From a virus: a stretch of 23,327 bases of DNA. The translations under genes were made by a program, and so were the position numbers. The stretch lies in the IMG/VR virus record IMGVR_UViG_3300027963_000351, positions 1-23,327 of that record. One strand, written 5' to 3'. Below are positions 2,558-13,266 of the stretch, one piece after another; within the stretch, counting starts at the first letter, position 1, and every line of letters begins with the position of its first letter. The notes under the pieces were generated by a model that was not told the origin of the DNA, did no database searches, and was given only the letters and a program-made list of their open reading frames with translations.

Positions 2558-4717
2558 ATGGAACTTATTCAATCAAAATCACTTTTAGCCAAATTAATGG
2601 CAACAGAGAACTTAATCGTAGAGCAACGCAATGTTGCAACGGCAAGCTTTGATGTACAAAGTCGAGTACTTACCGTTCCTACGCTAGATAAAAATATTTC
2701 TGGATTTCTTTATGACCTTTTTATGGGACATGAAGTCGGTCACGCACTTTACACTCCTTTGGAAGGAATGAAAAGAGCAAGAGATGAAAAAATTTCTATG
2801 TCTATCGCAAATGTGGTAGAAGATTGCCGTATTGAACGTAAGGTCAAGAACAAATATCCAGGTATTCGTTCTAGCTTTGTCCGTGCATATCGTGAATTGA
2901 TTGAAAAAGATTTCTTTGGTACAGCTGGTGTAAACCTCAATGAGTTAAATTTTATTGACCGTTTGAATCTTTATACAAAAGGCGGTGCTGCACAAGGTAT
3001 CAAATTTACAGAGTATGAGAAATCTCTTGTTGATATGGTTGAAAAAACAGAATCATATGATAATGTGATTGAGACTACCCGTATTATTGCAAAATATATG
3101 AAAGAAGTTGCTGAAGAACAGCGCAAGAAGAACGCCAAAGAATTATCTAAACTACAAGAAGATGAAGATGGTGAAGATGAATTTGAGGATGTAGAGTTAG
3201 ACGAAGACGGTGAGTTGACTGGTGATGAAGATATCAATATGGATTTTGATTCTGATGAAGATGATTCTTCCGAAGATTCAACGAATGATATACAAACAGG
3301 CAATCAAAACGGAATACAAGATGAAGATTTGAAATCATTCACAGATGAAGCATATCGTCAGAATGAACAAAAATTGTTTTCTAAAGATAGTCAATCATAT
3401 TACTATGGTAATATTCCAAATGTAAATTTAGATGATATTATTATTGACCATAAAGTTCTATGGAAAAGATTCTATAGTGAAGCCGCAGTGGATGGATATA
3501 TTAGTGATTCTGCCAAAAGAGAATTCCAAAAAATAAGAAATGATTCCAAGAAAGTTGTTGGTTATCTCGCCAAGGAATTTGAACTCCGTAAAAATGCTGA
3601 CCAGTTGAAACGTGCATCTATTGCTAAAACTGGTGAATTGAATATGAATAGGATTTATGCATATCAATTAACTGATGATATCTTCAAAAAAATTACGGTA
3701 GTTCCTGGCGCTAAATCACATGGTCTAATTATGTTCCTCGATTGGTCTGGTTCTATGGGTTCTCATATTGATAATACAGTTAAACAATTAATCAATTTAG
3801 TAATGTTCTGTAAAAAAGTAAATATTCCTTTTGATGTGTATGCTTTCAGTTCAGAATATCATGATGAAAATTATGTTGATAACTTTAAGAGACTTGAAAA
3901 ATCATCTAAAGAAGGTGATATTAAATTAGAACGATTTAATCTATTAAACATATTGTCTAGTAGAATGTCTGCTATCGAATTCAAAAATGCTGGAAGTGGA
4001 CTTATACAAGTTTCAAATCGCTTTTGGAGACCAAACTGGTTTGGTCGTGGTGGTACACCTCTGAATGAAACAATTATCTCTGCTATGAAGATTGTTCCGG
4101 AATTTCAGAAAAGATACAAATTACAAATTGTAAATACAGTATTCTTAACTGATGGTGATGGCCATTCTAATAATGAAGTATTTTATAAAACGACTGATGA
4201 ACCGCTCCGTGACGGCCAACGACCATTGAGAGTTGGTCACAGAAATTCTGGTCCCATGATTGATGAAGATGGTTATAAGAAAATTAAGAAATTGATAATC
4301 CGTGACCCTATCACAAAACTTGAACATATACCAGATTTTGACCGTAGCCGTGAATTGACTGCCGCATATATAAAAATGTTGAAGGCAAGAACCAACTGTA
4401 ACATCCTTGGTTTCTATGTATTGTCTGGTCGTGAACTTGGCCGTGAGTTGTATAGGTTTTATCCTGGTAAACCAGATTCTTTCTATAATAATTTAAGAAT
4501 CGAATTCCGTAAAAATAAAGCAACTGTGGTTACTTCATCTGGTTTTGATGAGTATTACTTGTTACGCTCTAACGCACTAGATACTAATGATGATGTTGAA
4601 TTTGAGGTGAAAGAGAATGCAACGACCCGTGGTCTTGTTTCTGCTTTTAGCAAATACACAGGGAACCGATTAAGTAATCGGGTAGTTTTAAATCGTTTTA
4701 TAGGAATGATAGCATGA
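2558..4717 (+). CDS. cobT: CobT-like protein: HExxH metallopeptidase-like domain plus VWA domain
   Basis: 719 residues. The N-terminal part has a zincin-like signature, HEVGH at 58-62 followed by VVEDCRIE near 86-93 as possible third ligand. Residues about 200-245 are a long acidic linker (Asp/Glu/Ser-rich), as in cobaltochelatase CobT. The C-terminal half is a von Willebrand A domain with a complete MIDAS site: D395-W-S397-G-S399, T500 in GGTPL and D532 in LTDGDGH. CobT pairs with the AAA+ protein CobS in aerobic cobaltochelatase; a CobS-like gene lies at 17090-18238 in this window. In a phage the pair more probably acts as a AAA+/VWA remodelling machine than as a full cobalt chelatase, since no large CobN subunit is seen. 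The stop overlaps the next ATG. Confidence 0.8.
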   Translation: MELIQSKSLLAKLMATENLIVEQRNVATASFDVQSRVLTVPTLDKNISGFLYDLFMGHEVGHALYTPLEGMKRARDEKISMSIANVVEDCRIERKVKNKYPGIRSSFVRAYRELIEKDFFGTAGVNLNELNFIDRLNLYTKGGAAQGIKFTEYEKSLVDMVEKTESYDNVIETTRIIAKYMKEVAEEQRKKNAKELSKLQEDEDGEDEFEDVELDEDGELTGDEDINMDFDSDEDDSSEDSTNDIQTGNQNGIQDEDLKSFTDEAYRQNEQKLFSKDSQSYYYGNIPNVNLDDIIIDHKVLWKRFYSEAAVDGYISDSAKREFQKIRNDSKKVVGYLAKEFELRKNADQLKRASIAKTGELNMNRIYAYQLTDDIFKKITVVPGAKSHGLIMFLDWSGSMGSHIDNTVKQLINLVMFCKKVNIPFDVYAFSSEYHDENYVDNFKRLEKSSKEGDIKLERFNLLNILSSRMSAIEFKNAGSGLIQVSNRFWRPNWFGRGGTPLNETIISAMKIVPEFQKRYKLQIVNTVFLTDGDGHSNNEVFYKTTDEPLRDGQRPLRVGHRNSGPMIDEDGYKKIKKLIIRDPITKLEHIPDFDRSRELTAAYIKMLKARTNCNILGFYVLSGRELGRELYRFYPGKPDSFYNNLRIEFRKNKATVVTSSGFDEYYLLRSNALDTNDDVEFEVKENATTRGLVSAFSKYTGNRLSNRVVLNRFIGMIA

Positions 4718-5743: not shown

Positions 5744-5920
5744 ATGAACTTTACATATAATGAAATGTATCTTGCCGTTCTAAGAAAAGAACGTGAGACA
5801 CTTTTAAAAGAATATTATGATCCACATTCCGAAGGAACTGGACACTTTAATACTGCTGCAAATGTATTAGAGATGCGTATCAATGAAATTGTAAATATTA
5901 TGGAGACCGAAAATGCCTAA
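5744..5920 (+). CDS. Small conserved-looking T4-like hypothetical protein
   Basis: 58 residues with GAGGAG just upstream (in the last GroES codons). Two helices flank a DPHSEGTGHFNTAANVLEMRI segment; a TGH-containing turn followed by LExRIxEI recalls small cyanophage proteins, though I cannot name a family. Overlaps the Api92-like gene by eight bases, so it probably belongs to the GroES-like operon. Confidence 0.72.
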   Translation: MNFTYNEMYLAVLRKERETLLKEYYDPHSEGTGHFNTAANVLEMRINEIVNIMETENA

Positions 5921-6710
5921 TTGGTGTACAAACGTGGCTACAATCAACCACGGTGATAGTGCTTTGATTGATGCAATTGAGACAGAACTCAAAAAGGAAA
6001 AGCCAGAACTTTTCCAGATGTTACGTCCACGGCCACCTGAATTTGAAGAACAGTGGTATTCTTGGAATGTAGATAACTGGGGAACCAAGTGGGAAGCCAA
6101 TATCTATAACTATGAACGTGTAGACGATAACAATATTAAAATCAGTTTTGACACCGCATGGGGTCCTTGTGTTTCTTTGTATGAATATCTATTTGAAAAT
6201 GGATATGATACGACTGCCTACTATGAAGAAGGCGGTATGGCATTCTGTGGTAAGTATGAGTTTGGCGAAGATTACTACTATGATTATTCTGGTATGAATT
6301 CTGAAACAATGAAAGAAGAACTTCCTTCAGACCTTGATGAAATGTTTGGTCTATCTGAACGAATGGCTGACCAAGAAGCCGAAGATGAGGAAGACGAGGA
6401 TGATGAAGAAGATGAAGAAGATACAGAACCAAATTGGGAACTACAGTATGGTTTTACTGATTGGTTTCCTAAGAAAATCAAACCTGTTCGTGATGGCATC
6501 TATGAAGTATCGACCGACTCATGGCCGTTTCCACAGAAATGTGAATGGGATGGAAAGAAATGGAATCACCTAGGTGGTGCTAAGATTACACAATGGCGTG
6601 GTCTTGCTGTGGATCCAGTAGCGAAACAATCAGACCTTGAAAAGGCTTTAGAAGAACTCAAAGAAGAATTTGATAAACTAATGGCTGAGGAAAACGAAAA
6701 GTCTAACTAA
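5913..6710 (+). CDS. Api92-like / YubB (DUF1281) ferredoxin-fold protein with extra C-terminal domain
   Basis: 265 residues. The start MPNWCTN and the blocks WGTKWE (56-61), FDTAWGPC (79-86) and YYEEGGMAFCG (103-113) are typical of the Api92-like family (ferredoxin-like domain; role unknown). An acidic tract (155-172, almost all Asp/Glu) separates it from a C-terminal domain, about 179-235, with GFTDWFPKKIKPVRDGIYEV, Trp-rich strands and an ending QWRGL; this second domain is found alone or fused in phage proteins as far as I recall. A paralogue lacking the C-terminal domain lies at 10690-11301. Overlaps the previous gene by eight bases. Confidence 0.82.
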   Translation: MPNWCTNVATINHGDSALIDAIETELKKEKPELFQMLRPRPPEFEEQWYSWNVDNWGTKWEANIYNYERVDDNNIKISFDTAWGPCVSLYEYLFENGYDTTAYYEEGGMAFCGKYEFGEDYYYDYSGMNSETMKEELPSDLDEMFGLSERMADQEAEDEEDEDDEEDEEDTEPNWELQYGFTDWFPKKIKPVRDGIYEVSTDSWPFPQKCEWDGKKWNHLGGAKITQWRGLAVDPVAKQSDLEKALEELKEEFDKLMAEENEKSN

Positions 6711-10689: not shown

Positions 10690-11301
10690 ATGCCAAATTG
10701 GTGTAGTAATTATATTGAGTTAGAGCATTCTGACTCTGGAATGATTTCCCGTGCTGCCAAAGCATTAGGTGAAGGTACATTATTGAATGAATTCATTCCC
10801 GTGCCTGCTGACTTGCATATTACTGCAGGTAATGTAGGTGCAAAAGGTTCACCTGAACAAATTGCTCATGAGTTGCAAGTTGAGCAAAATATCGCCAAAC
10901 ACGGTTATGCTGATTGGTATGCTTTTTGTGTTGCTGAATGGGGCACAAAATGGGACTTAGGCGGTGATGGTTCACAAGCAACGATTGACGAATCAGGCAA
11001 GAAATTGACATTTTCCGTTGATTCTGCATGGTGCCCGCCTATTGCCGCTTATGAAAAACTGGAAGAATTAGGTTTTACGATAAAAGCAATGTATTATGAA
11101 GGCGGTATGCTTTTTGCTGGTGTGTATTCTAACGGTTGTGATGATTATTATGAATTCGATTCTTTGAATTCTGAAGATGTTGCAAGTATGTTGCCAGAAG
11201 AATTGAATGAAATGTTTGGTATTTCAGAAAATATGGCAATGTGGGAAGAGGAAAACGAAGAAATCGACTTGGACGGCGGTCTGAGTGCTACAAACGAGTA
11301 A
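10690..11301 (+). CDS. Api92-like / YubB (DUF1281) ferredoxin-fold protein
   Basis: 203 residues, AAAGG seven bases before the ATG. It shares MPNWCSN, EWGTKWD, FSVDSAWCPP, YYEGGMLFAG and LPEELNEMFGISENMA with the protein at 5913-6710 and is clearly a paralogue. Unlike that copy it keeps the longer family middle (LNEFIPVPADL and a long helical insert, about residues 34-70) and lacks the acidic linker and the C-terminal QWRGL domain. Role unknown; such genes occur in phages and plasmids. Confidence 0.84.
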   Translation: MPNWCSNYIELEHSDSGMISRAAKALGEGTLLNEFIPVPADLHITAGNVGAKGSPEQIAHELQVEQNIAKHGYADWYAFCVAEWGTKWDLGGDGSQATIDESGKKLTFSVDSAWCPPIAAYEKLEELGFTIKAMYYEGGMLFAGVYSNGCDDYYEFDSLNSEDVASMLPEELNEMFGISENMAMWEEENEEIDLDGGLSATNE

Positions 11302-11350: not shown

Positions 11351-11379
11351 TTGCCAATTATATCAAAATACGGTATAAT
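11351..11379 (+). promoter_or_regulatory. TTGCCA-type promoter for the Gp88-like operon
   Basis: TTGCCA (11351-11356), 17-base spacer, TATAAT (11374-11379). The spacer contains ATTATATCAAA (11357-11367), also an arm of the inverted repeat at 9228. The GTG at 11412 follows with AGGA. Confidence 0.85.
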
Positions 11380-11411: not shown

Positions 11412-12161
11412 GTGAAATTATTATCCGTGGGTAATCCAAAGACCTTAAAAGGTCAATCAGTTGGTTACATGACATTTATTCTACATTTGGCACCCGCCAA
11501 TGTGTCAGGTCGTGAAACCTGTCCAAAGCGGACTGCTGGTTGTACCTCTGCTTGTCTCAATACTGCTGGTCGTGGCGGTATGTTCAAGCGTGGTGAAACC
11601 ACCAATACTATTCAACAAGCAAGAATTCGTAAAACCAATATGTTCTTTGAAGAGCGGACTGGTTTTATGGAATGGTTAGTTGCTGATATTACATTGGCAA
11701 TCAAACAGGCAAAGCGTCAAAACCTTATTCCTGTATTCCGTTTGAATGGTACAAGTGACCTATCATGGGAAAAATACAGAGTTATCCGTAATGGATTAGT
11801 ATACACTAACATATTCTCGGCATTCCCTGAAGTCCAATTCTATGACTACACCAAGGTGCTTGGTCGTAAGGTCAAAGATATCAAAAACTATCACCTGACA
11901 TTCTCTGCTGCTGACGGTAATGATGGAGATGTATTGTCCGCCATGACCCAAGGTTATAATGTTGCTGTTGTTTTTGGTATCAAGAAAACCCTACCAATGC
12001 CTGAGTTATACAAGTTCCGTTCCGTGTTCAATGGTGACGATAGCGACCTACGCTTTTTAGATCCAAAAGGCGTTGTCGTTGGTTTGTATGCCAAAGGTAA
12101 AGCAAAAAAAGATACAACAGGTTTTGTGAAGTATCCAACAATTATGTTAATGGCGGCGTAA
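11412..12161 (+). CDS. Gp88/DUF7227-like phage protein with Cys cluster
   Basis: 249 residues from GTG 11412 (AGGA at 11402-11405, spacer six); the in-frame TTG at 11385 lacks such a site. The N-terminal LSVGNPKTLKG and HLAPANVSGRETCPKRTAGCTSACLNTAGRGG carry three cysteines (37, 44, 48) spaced CX6CX3C. Further on, VFRLNGTSDLSWE (108-120), FYDYTKVLG and YHLTFSAADGN correspond to blocks of the Gp88-type phage family, which I remember as of unknown function. The cysteine cluster followed by a barrel-like pattern suggests metal or Fe-S binding, but this is not the canonical radical-SAM CX3CX2C spacing. Confidence 0.75.
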   Translation: MKLLSVGNPKTLKGQSVGYMTFILHLAPANVSGRETCPKRTAGCTSACLNTAGRGGMFKRGETTNTIQQARIRKTNMFFEERTGFMEWLVADITLAIKQAKRQNLIPVFRLNGTSDLSWEKYRVIRNGLVYTNIFSAFPEVQFYDYTKVLGRKVKDIKNYHLTFSAADGNDGDVLSAMTQGYNVAVVFGIKKTLPMPELYKFRSVFNGDDSDLRFLDPKGVVVGLYAKGKAKKDTTGFVKYPTIMLMAA

Positions 12162-12162
12162 T

Positions 12163-12321
12163 ATGAAATATGTTATTCGATGTGTAAATGACCACGAACT
12201 ATTGTGGTCAAATGATGAAGGTTATACCGATTCAGATAATTTCGAAATATATTCTTTCGAAGAAACGAAAATATATCATTTACCCATTGAAGGTGAATGG
12301 ATAGAATTGGTAACATCATAA
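12163..12321 (+). CDS. Small acidic hypothetical protein immediately before the ribozyme
   Basis: 52 residues starting one base after the previous stop. Reads as beta strands with acidic loops (MKYVIRCVNDHELLWSNDEG; EIYSFEETKIYHLPIEGEW). No family recognised. Its TAA (12319-12321) is directly followed by the first base of the hammerhead ribozyme, so a terminating ribosome would sit on the ribozyme's first strand. Confidence 0.7.
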   Translation: MKYVIRCVNDHELLWSNDEGYTDSDNFEIYSFEETKIYHLPIEGEWIELVTS

Positions 12322-12374
12322 GCATTACTGATGAGGCTTTAATAGCCGAAACCGATTTTGAATCGGTCTAATGC
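12322..12374 (+). ncRNA. Type I hammerhead ribozyme
   Basis: Every conserved piece is present in order. Stem I: GCATTA (12322-12327) pairs with TAATGC (12369-12374). Core CTGATGA (12328-12334). Stem II: GGCT/AGCC (12335-12338 with 12344-12347), loop TTAAT. Core GAA (12348-12350). Stem III: ACCGATT/AATCGGT (12351-12357 with 12361-12367), loop TTG, including the required A15.1-U16.1 pair. Then C17 (12368), giving a GTC cleavage triplet. Cleavage is expected between 12368 and 12369. Stem I is the open stem, hence type I. Stem I is short, with no obvious internal loop to contact loop II, so cleavage might be slow or use flanking sequence. Confidence 0.93.
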
Positions 12375-12377
12375 AAA

Positions 12378-12563
12378 ATGAATATTTTAATAAAGAAAAA
12401 ATATATGACAAAAGAAACGATTAATATGCTTGTTACTGCTCGATGGAAAATCGAATTGGCAGCATCCATGGTGGACAATGAATCAGAAATCTATGATGGT
12501 TTGGTAAATTGTCTGGTTGAGTTAGATAATATATTGAAAGAAAAAACAGATGCATTTCTTTGA
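12378..12563 (+). CDS. Small helical hypothetical protein downstream of the ribozyme
   Basis: 61 residues from ATG 12378, or 52 from the in-frame ATG at 12405 (TKETINMLVTARWKIELAAS...). Neither has a convincing Shine-Dalgarno. After ribozyme cleavage the message would begin at 12369, leaving a leader of nine bases before 12378 or 36 before 12405; the second is easier to reconcile with normal initiation. The protein is helical and moderately acidic (VNCLVELDNILKEKTDAFL) and unrecognised. Confidence 0.66.
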   Translation: MNILIKKKYMTKETINMLVTARWKIELAASMVDNESEIYDGLVNCLVELDNILKEKTDAFL

Positions 12564-12742: not shown

Positions 12743-12937
12743 ATGACAAATTCAGAAATGATTGATAAGTTAAAACAGGCACAGCAATTACTTGCTGATG
12801 TATATCATTGGGCTGATACCCCAATGTCCAATGGGTTACAGGTTTCTCCTTTGAAAACCAATGCTCAGATTGCAAGTGAGTTATCGGTTGCCGATTCTTG
12901 CATTTGTGAATGTCTTGATTTATTGAGAGATGAATAA
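12743..12937 (+). CDS. Small hypothetical protein
   Basis: 64 residues. The frame is open from further upstream with ATGs at 12707 and 12713, but AAGGGA (12733-12738) supports ATG 12743 and avoids overlap with the preceding gene. Helical N-terminus (EMIDKLKQAQQLLADVYHWA), a Pro/Asn-rich middle and a C-terminal helix containing DSCICECLDLL with three cysteines. Unrecognised. TAATG overlap with the next gene. Confidence 0.7.
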   Translation: MTNSEMIDKLKQAQQLLADVYHWADTPMSNGLQVSPLKTNAQIASELSVADSCICECLDLLRDE

Positions 12938-13212
12938 TGATTCATAATTATGGTATGTTTAGTGTCGAAGGCAATAATGCCATCCACTTGATTGTTGAAA
13001 ATGCTCTCAAAAACAATTTACGATGGATTGATGTATATCGTGAGTTGCAAGACCTTTCACTTACAGAAGGTTTTGAAGAAGCAATGGATACAGAAGTCCG
13101 TGAAATTGTATACGAAGTGTTAGAATCAACGGATAATTTTTATGGTAGTGATGATTCCGATGGTCAACCTGACGAAGCGCAAGAATGGCACGATTACGAT
13201 CCAGATTGTTGA
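12937..13212 (+). CDS. Acidic hypothetical protein
   Basis: 91 residues, last gene before the promoter at 13239. N-terminal half is helical (NNAIHLIVENALKNNLRWIDVYRELQD); the C-terminal 30 residues are strongly acidic and polar (STDNFYGSDDSDGQPDEAQEW). It shares one base with the preceding stop. No family recognised; the acidic tail recalls DNA-mimic or chaperone-like tails but nothing supports a function. Confidence 0.7.
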   Translation: MIHNYGMFSVEGNNAIHLIVENALKNNLRWIDVYRELQDLSLTEGFEEAMDTEVREIVYEVLESTDNFYGSDDSDGQPDEAQEWHDYDPDC

Positions 13213-13238: not shown

Positions 13239-13266
13239 TTGCCACACCCTGTGGTTAGTGTATAAT
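13239..13266 (+). promoter_or_regulatory. TTGCCA-type promoter under a hairpin
   Basis: TTGCCA (13239-13244), 16-base spacer, TATAAT (13261-13266). The -35 lies in the loop region of an imperfect GC-rich inverted repeat, ACAGGGGTGG/CCACACCCTGT (about 13229-13252, one bulge), which may be a terminator stem for the upstream unit or an operator. Confidence 0.8.

Follow-up and report, generated by a model that had tools for sequence, protein, structure and literature searches.

What a self-cleaving RNA would do at the boundary between two small phage genes is the question raised by positions 12322-12374 of the viral record IMGVR_UViG_3300027963_000351, whose 23,327 nt, analysed here as a whole, are referred to as the window. 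This plus-strand stretch is a real and complete type I hammerhead ribozyme. We hold with good though not full confidence that it is a natural hammerhead of type I and serves as a site of intercistronic processing, a reading that includes a predicted cleavage, a putative promoter and a presumed effect on expression.

A complete type I hammerhead in the window

The letters of the motif are given part by part, in order, together with the neighbouring features in the table. An earlier note on this DNA had recognized all invariant hammerhead elements in their proper order, with all 17 stem positions paired, and both statements are borne out by the descriptor scan, which found every core base in place, including the A15.1-U16.1 pair and C17 at 12368, and stems I, II, and III of 6, 4, and 7 pairs, 17/17 of them Watson-Crick. 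The invariant core (CUGANGA ... GAA ... H17) is located at 12328-12334, 12348-12350, and C12368, the topology is that of type I, in which loops close stems II and III and stem I is open, and the canonical pairs adjacent to the core are present (12351/12367, 12327/12369, and 12335/12347). Scanning both strands of the window for types I, II, and III returned this type I match as the single one, while 300 random Markov-1 windows (14 Mb over both strands) gave eight weak matches of any type and none having stems of at least 5, 4, and 5 pairs along with A15.1-U16.1. Moreover, the hammerhead is itself the predicted structure of minimum free energy, at −15.9 kcal/mol compared to −8.2 in shuffles (z −2.8; 1 of 200 shuffles equally good), and folding within transcripts of 141 to 1177 nt assigns the hammerhead pairs a mean probability of 0.68-0.74. 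The window also carries the marks of a subtype that lie outside the core, namely an A just 5′ of stem I, six pairs in stem I with G-C as the closing pair, a TNANT-type loop II, and AA just 3′ of stem I. The TNANT loop and the A/G...C/AA flanks, both conserved, may serve a putative tertiary contact between loop II and stem I. The window ribozyme is probably active.

Table. Hammerhead parts and neighbouring features, in window coordinates
Feature	Positions	Strand	Basis
Promoter-like TTGCCA-17-TATAAT heading the unit	11351..11379	+	consensus match only
GP88-family gene (Pfam PF17338), first of the unit, GTG start after AAAGGA	11412..12161	+	
Upstream gene, 52 aa, no known family	12163..12321	+	homologue (76% aa) in L201
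TAA stop of the upstream 52-aa gene, abutting stem I	12319..12321	+	same contact in L315/L316 with the GP88 stop
Type I hammerhead ribozyme	12322..12374	+	descriptor scan; covariance model R1; identical 53 nt in L315/L316
Stem I, 5′ strand GCATTA	12322..12327	+	pairs with 12369-12374; same stem I in relatives' copies, which were partly selected on stem I
Core box CTGATGA	12328..12334	+	invariant hammerhead core
Stem II GGCT/AGCC (12335-12338/12344-12347) with loop II TTAAT	12335..12347	+	compensatory changes in relatives
Core GAA (G12 A13 A14)	12348..12350	+	descriptor scan
Stem III ACCGATT/AATCGGT (12351-12357/12361-12367) with TTG loop	12351..12367	+	minimum free energy fold; descriptor scan
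A15.1-U16.1 pair	12351/12367	+	descriptor scan
C17, predicted cleavage 3′ of this base	12368	+	position in the hammerhead fold
Stem I, 3′ strand TAATGC, 5′ end of the predicted downstream product	12369..12374	+	descriptor scan
Downstream gene, 52 residues plus stop (53 counting the stop), no known family	12405..12563	+	start context AAAGAAAAAATATATG
Promoter-like TTGCCA-16-TATAAT, taken as the end of the unit	13239..13266	+	consensus match only

A covariance model search, proposed earlier as a check, has a divided outcome: taken narrowly, as an Rfam search, it is negative, and with a model built from phage sequences it is positive. At gathering thresholds no Rfam family matched in the window. 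With relaxed thresholds, RF00008 Hammerhead_3, a type III model, scored 25.8 bits (cut-off 48.5) in the wrong register, 12305-12357, leaving out C17 at 12368, and RF03152 RAGATH-1-hammerhead scored 25.4 bits in the correct register (cut-off 56.3 bits over 77 positions), aligning 12323-12373 with the correct stems over model positions 26-77, the first 25 being absent. The window was not among the matches of RF00163 Hammerhead_1, on which a similar viral copy in L018 reached 22.7 bits (cut-off 34 bits). The window's relatives attained at most 39.2 bits (L323 on RF03152), and eleven viral loci containing more than 20 clear hammerheads gave nothing at the Rfam gathering level. Since these other phage hammerheads are missed too, we attribute the failure to the models, whose cut-offs miss this viral subtype. 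Model R1, built from 63 other viral hammerheads with the window excluded, assigned 68.8 bits and an E value of 6.5e-15 to 12318-12378, the runner-up in the window scoring 13.1 bits.

Neighbouring genes and the processing reading

The location of the hammerhead between two small genes, as originally described, stands, for both are co-oriented with it inside one promoter-to-promoter unit, in which two promoter-like sites bracket the GP88-family gene, the 52-aa gene, the ribozyme, and the following small genes. The motif TTG[AC]CA-16/17-TATAAT repeats on the plus strand at 1755, 5433, 8591, 8706, 10185, 11351, 13239, 14705, 16644, and 20430, and it is probable that it divides the window into early operons. 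Given that similar promoter-like sites recur through the window, by consensus matching only, the unit from GP88 to 13239 looks like one early operon. A late promoter of T4 type (TATAAATA) was sought near the ribozyme and not found. Genes for a peptidase, a CobS-like ATPase family member, and a T4 RNase H-type exonuclease lie nearby and point to a T4-like myophage; the peptidase has about 34% identity to its counterpart in cyanophage S-CAM1, and almost all of its relatives in named phages come from cyanophages. A BLAST search with the region gave no DNA-level match to named phages, the small neighbour genes matched no PHROG or Pfam family, and no relative of the downstream small gene was found in viral contigs. 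Elsewhere in the window, 5913-6710 and 10690-11301 encode two related proteins that both start with MPNWC, and in L201 a homologue of these occupies the position behind the 52-aa gene that the ribozyme has in the window. A 91-aa protein (12937-13212) has an acidic C-terminal end that recurs in many otherwise different viral proteins, with up to 100% identity over 17 residues (residues 75-91).

The start of the downstream gene had been placed at 12378, which is doubtful. The ATG at 12378 lies 9 nt past the predicted cut, has no ribosome site and would add nine residues, and in L323 the equivalent ATG runs into a stop two codons on. With 36 nt between it and the cut, the ATG at 12405 stands in the context AAAGAAAAAATATATG, which recurs as AAAGAAAAAACAGATG at the next gene start, 12550. 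Because of the missing ribosome site at 12378, the repeated context, and the stop in L323, the gene was taken as 12405-12563, and it probably starts at 12405.

Judged from this arrangement, the hammerhead most likely cuts the message common to the two genes between them. RNA polymerase would start at about 11387 and transcribe GP88, the 52-aa gene, and then the ribozyme, which upon closure of stem I would cut itself co-transcriptionally after C12368. The upstream message, comprising GP88 and the 52-aa gene, would then end just past the stop codon in a folded ribozyme carrying a 2′,3′-cyclic phosphate, and the downstream message, from the 12405 gene onwards, would bear a 5′-hydroxyl and a 36-nt leader with a ribosome site, so that the cut would uncouple the stability and the translation of the two halves of the early operon. 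What the computation shows in favour of such processing is the fold, its preservation through compensatory changes, its location between a stop and a start codon, and the identical copy in diverged relatives. The idea that cleavage unmasks the ribosome site at 12405 found no support in folding, which predicts that its accessibility barely changes (0.58-0.66 before cleavage and 0.62-0.66 after); separate control of stability or dosage is therefore the more likely role.

A similar anatomy recurs in viral hammerheads at large. Searching IMG/VR with a core pattern, the pairing of stems I and III not being required, gave at least 119 viral stretches, and in 114 of the 119 loci listed the descriptor recognized one or more complete hammerheads, mostly of type I, and often several copies in one orientation. 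This is the less biased figure, given that the loci were found by the core pattern alone; pairing statistics of alignment A1 were set aside as proof because its sequences had been selected for pairing. The 63 aligned viral hammerheads have in common the preceding A, a stem I of 6 bp with a closing G-C pair, and one or two A residues on the 3′ side of that stem; in most of them loop II has 5 nt of the form TNANT. Among 163 viral type I hammerheads, an upstream open reading frame of at least 60 aa has its stop codon near the 5′ part of the ribozyme (from 10 nt upstream to 24 nt inside) in 71%, a figure that owes something to the TGATGA of the core itself, compared to 7.6% of random same-strand sites and 3.7% on the opposite strand. 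A start codon ATG with a Shine-Dalgarno-like site follows 15-45 nt past the cut in 45% (4.6% at random sites and 0% on the opposite strand), the commonest distance from cut to start being 25-26 nt. The recurrent anatomy is thus a stop codon, the ribozyme, the cut, about 25 nt, and a start codon, and in the window the TAA directly abuts stem I.

Hammerheads of the same subtype were also observed, unannotated, in the cultured Pelagibacter phages HTVC019P (L336, 2502-2562), HTVC131P (L337, 2497-2559), and Jormungand (L338, 3003-3063), where they lie upstream of MarR and integrase genes; in HTVC019P the cut is predicted to fall after base 3002 of the record, and Jormungand carries ardA genes about 1-2 kb upstream of the hammerhead on the same strand. 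One further copy of the subtype occurs in a Mucilaginibacter sp. SP1R1 assembly (L203, 4583-4637), and a Verrucomicrobia MAG (L204, 679-2559) contains three type I hammerheads and one type III.

Relatives of the locus and alternative readings

In two relatives, L315 and L316, the same 53 of 53 nt stand directly after the GP88 stop, and their GP88 genes have 68-69% DNA identity to that of the window, with no 53-nt stretch at 98% or above. L327 carries the ribozyme about 4 nt past the GP88 stop; its stem II reads GGAT/ATCC instead of GGCT/AGCC, so that pairing is preserved, and its stem III loop differs as well. In L323, two copies that have stem I in common lie on either side of a short run of genes, one of them directly before GP88, with 22 nt from the cut to the GP88 start. 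L201 possesses GP88 and the 52-aa gene (76% aa identity) and no ribozyme, and its DNA similarity to the window stops at stem I. Searching 55 relative loci (0.63 Mb) with the ribozyme model gave no match, nor did searches of 18 and 23 viral records. The ribozyme is missing from most relatives and is therefore dispensable, which speaks against the processing reading. Throughout the six copies compared (set A3), all pairs are kept and loop TTAAT is constant, while stem II also appears as GGAT/ATCC, GACC/GGTC, or GGGT/ACCC; two-sided changes occur at four pairs of stems II and III (shuffle mean 0.9), and stem I is invariant, an identity partly imposed by the search. The simplest account is that a unit of about 57 nt has recently been transferred or recombined at gene junctions while selection maintained the fold, and the compact phage subtype seems to pass between related phages as such a unit.

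These same observations bear on a second possibility, that the ribozyme is a selfish or neutral module, which spreads by recombination at gene junctions and cleaves without benefit to the phage. The complete identity to L315 and L316 despite the divergence of GP88 would be expected of such a module, as would its absence from most relatives and its variable position, which is behind the 52-aa gene in the window, behind GP88 in L315, L316, and L327, and ahead of GP88 in L323. However, recurrence around one gene on the same strand, the exact placement between stop and start, and the compensatory changes indicate selection on the fold, and no mobility gene was seen beside the ribozyme. We consider this account possible and on balance unlikely.

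Another explanation takes up the shared stem I. In 31 viral contigs with at least two type I copies, stem I identity within a contig is 0.69 against 0.46 in a GC-preserving null (0 of 1000), stem II identity is 0.52 against 0.51, and stem III is weakly shared (0.56 against 0.45). Several type I hammerheads on the same strand were seen per contig in L018, L026, L035, L042, L062, L091, L109, L111, and others, and the 51-kb record behind L026 holds nine. If stem I were kept common in multi-hammerhead phages so that any upstream product re-ligates to any downstream product, the ribozymes could exchange or circularize ends and yield spliced, shuffled, or circular phage RNAs, and the window copy would be one exchangeable unit, passed between phages with stem I unchanged. 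Copies within one contig do share stem I far more than stem II, the two copies of L323 with the same stem I surround a short gene stretch, and the type I product retains the whole catalytic part and a cyclic phosphate, as remarked for ligation by Perreault et al. (2011; PMC3088659). On the contrary, the window has a single copy, spliced or circular products were sought in the same study and none was found, and similar stems could also arise when a copy is duplicated inside one genome, stem III being somewhat shared as well. Re-ligation of ends would explain the sharing, local duplication or a constraint on the 5′ end of the product might also do so, and we regard the re-joining of products as rather improbable.

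That the hairpin is merely a protector of a 3′ end or a transcription terminator, with an incidental hammerhead core, is very improbable: stem III is indeed a 7-bp hairpin, but no T-run follows, the terminator scan did not list it, and conservation extends to the core, loop II, and stem I, none of which a terminator needs. A chance match, for which one could cite the shortness of hammerheads and the lack of an Rfam report at cut-offs, is refuted by the E value under the independent model, the identical copies, and the compensatory changes in relatives, and its probability is negligible.

Comparison with known systems

The processing reading has precedents. Perreault et al. (2011; PMC3088659) describe prophage hammerheads on the flanks of single genes and another placed 13 nt ahead of a phage start codon. 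Tandem phage hammerheads in that study cleaved in vitro, co-transcriptionally, and in E. coli, and the 5′ end of a halovirus early transcript lies within 3 nt of a predicted hammerhead cut, the ribozyme standing 13 nt ahead of a helicase gene. On the opposing side, 4 of 18 consensus hammerheads tested there had no activity. Hence, of the earlier remark that a hammerhead placed between short genes is notable, the setting is upheld and the notability is weakened, since hammerheads beside phage genes were already reported there. The question of their role in phages dates from 2011, and the window case gives it a precise and recurrent anatomy. Near-neighbour phages with and without the ribozyme, together with cultured Pelagibacter phages having the same subtype, make the function directly testable.

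Among Rfam families, RF03152 RAGATH-1-hammerhead resembles the window copy in its type I register and correct stems, whereas the window stays below threshold and lacks the first part of the model, and RF00163 Hammerhead_1 has the same permutation with open stem I, although it does not list the window. Theta ribozymes of gut phages (PMC10879173) are likewise small, self-cleaving, and proposed for RNA processing in phages; however, theirs is an HDV-like fold next to tRNAs, and the window ribozyme lies between protein genes. The closest likeness is to the prophage and phage hammerheads of PMC3088659, including the clusters around single genes and HHphage of haloviruses HF1 and HF2, which share the core, the sense orientation, and a position between or before phage genes. 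Several of those were shown to cleave, whereas cleavage of the window copy is predicted; the window copy differs further in belonging to a putative T4-like phage, in being single in its fragment, in recurring as an identical unit in diverged relatives, and in its canonical core, unlike HHphage. Its kind and setting have been known since 2011, and what is added here is the exact anatomy of stop, ribozyme, and start, the evidence that the ribozyme is transferred as one unit, and the sharing of stem I.
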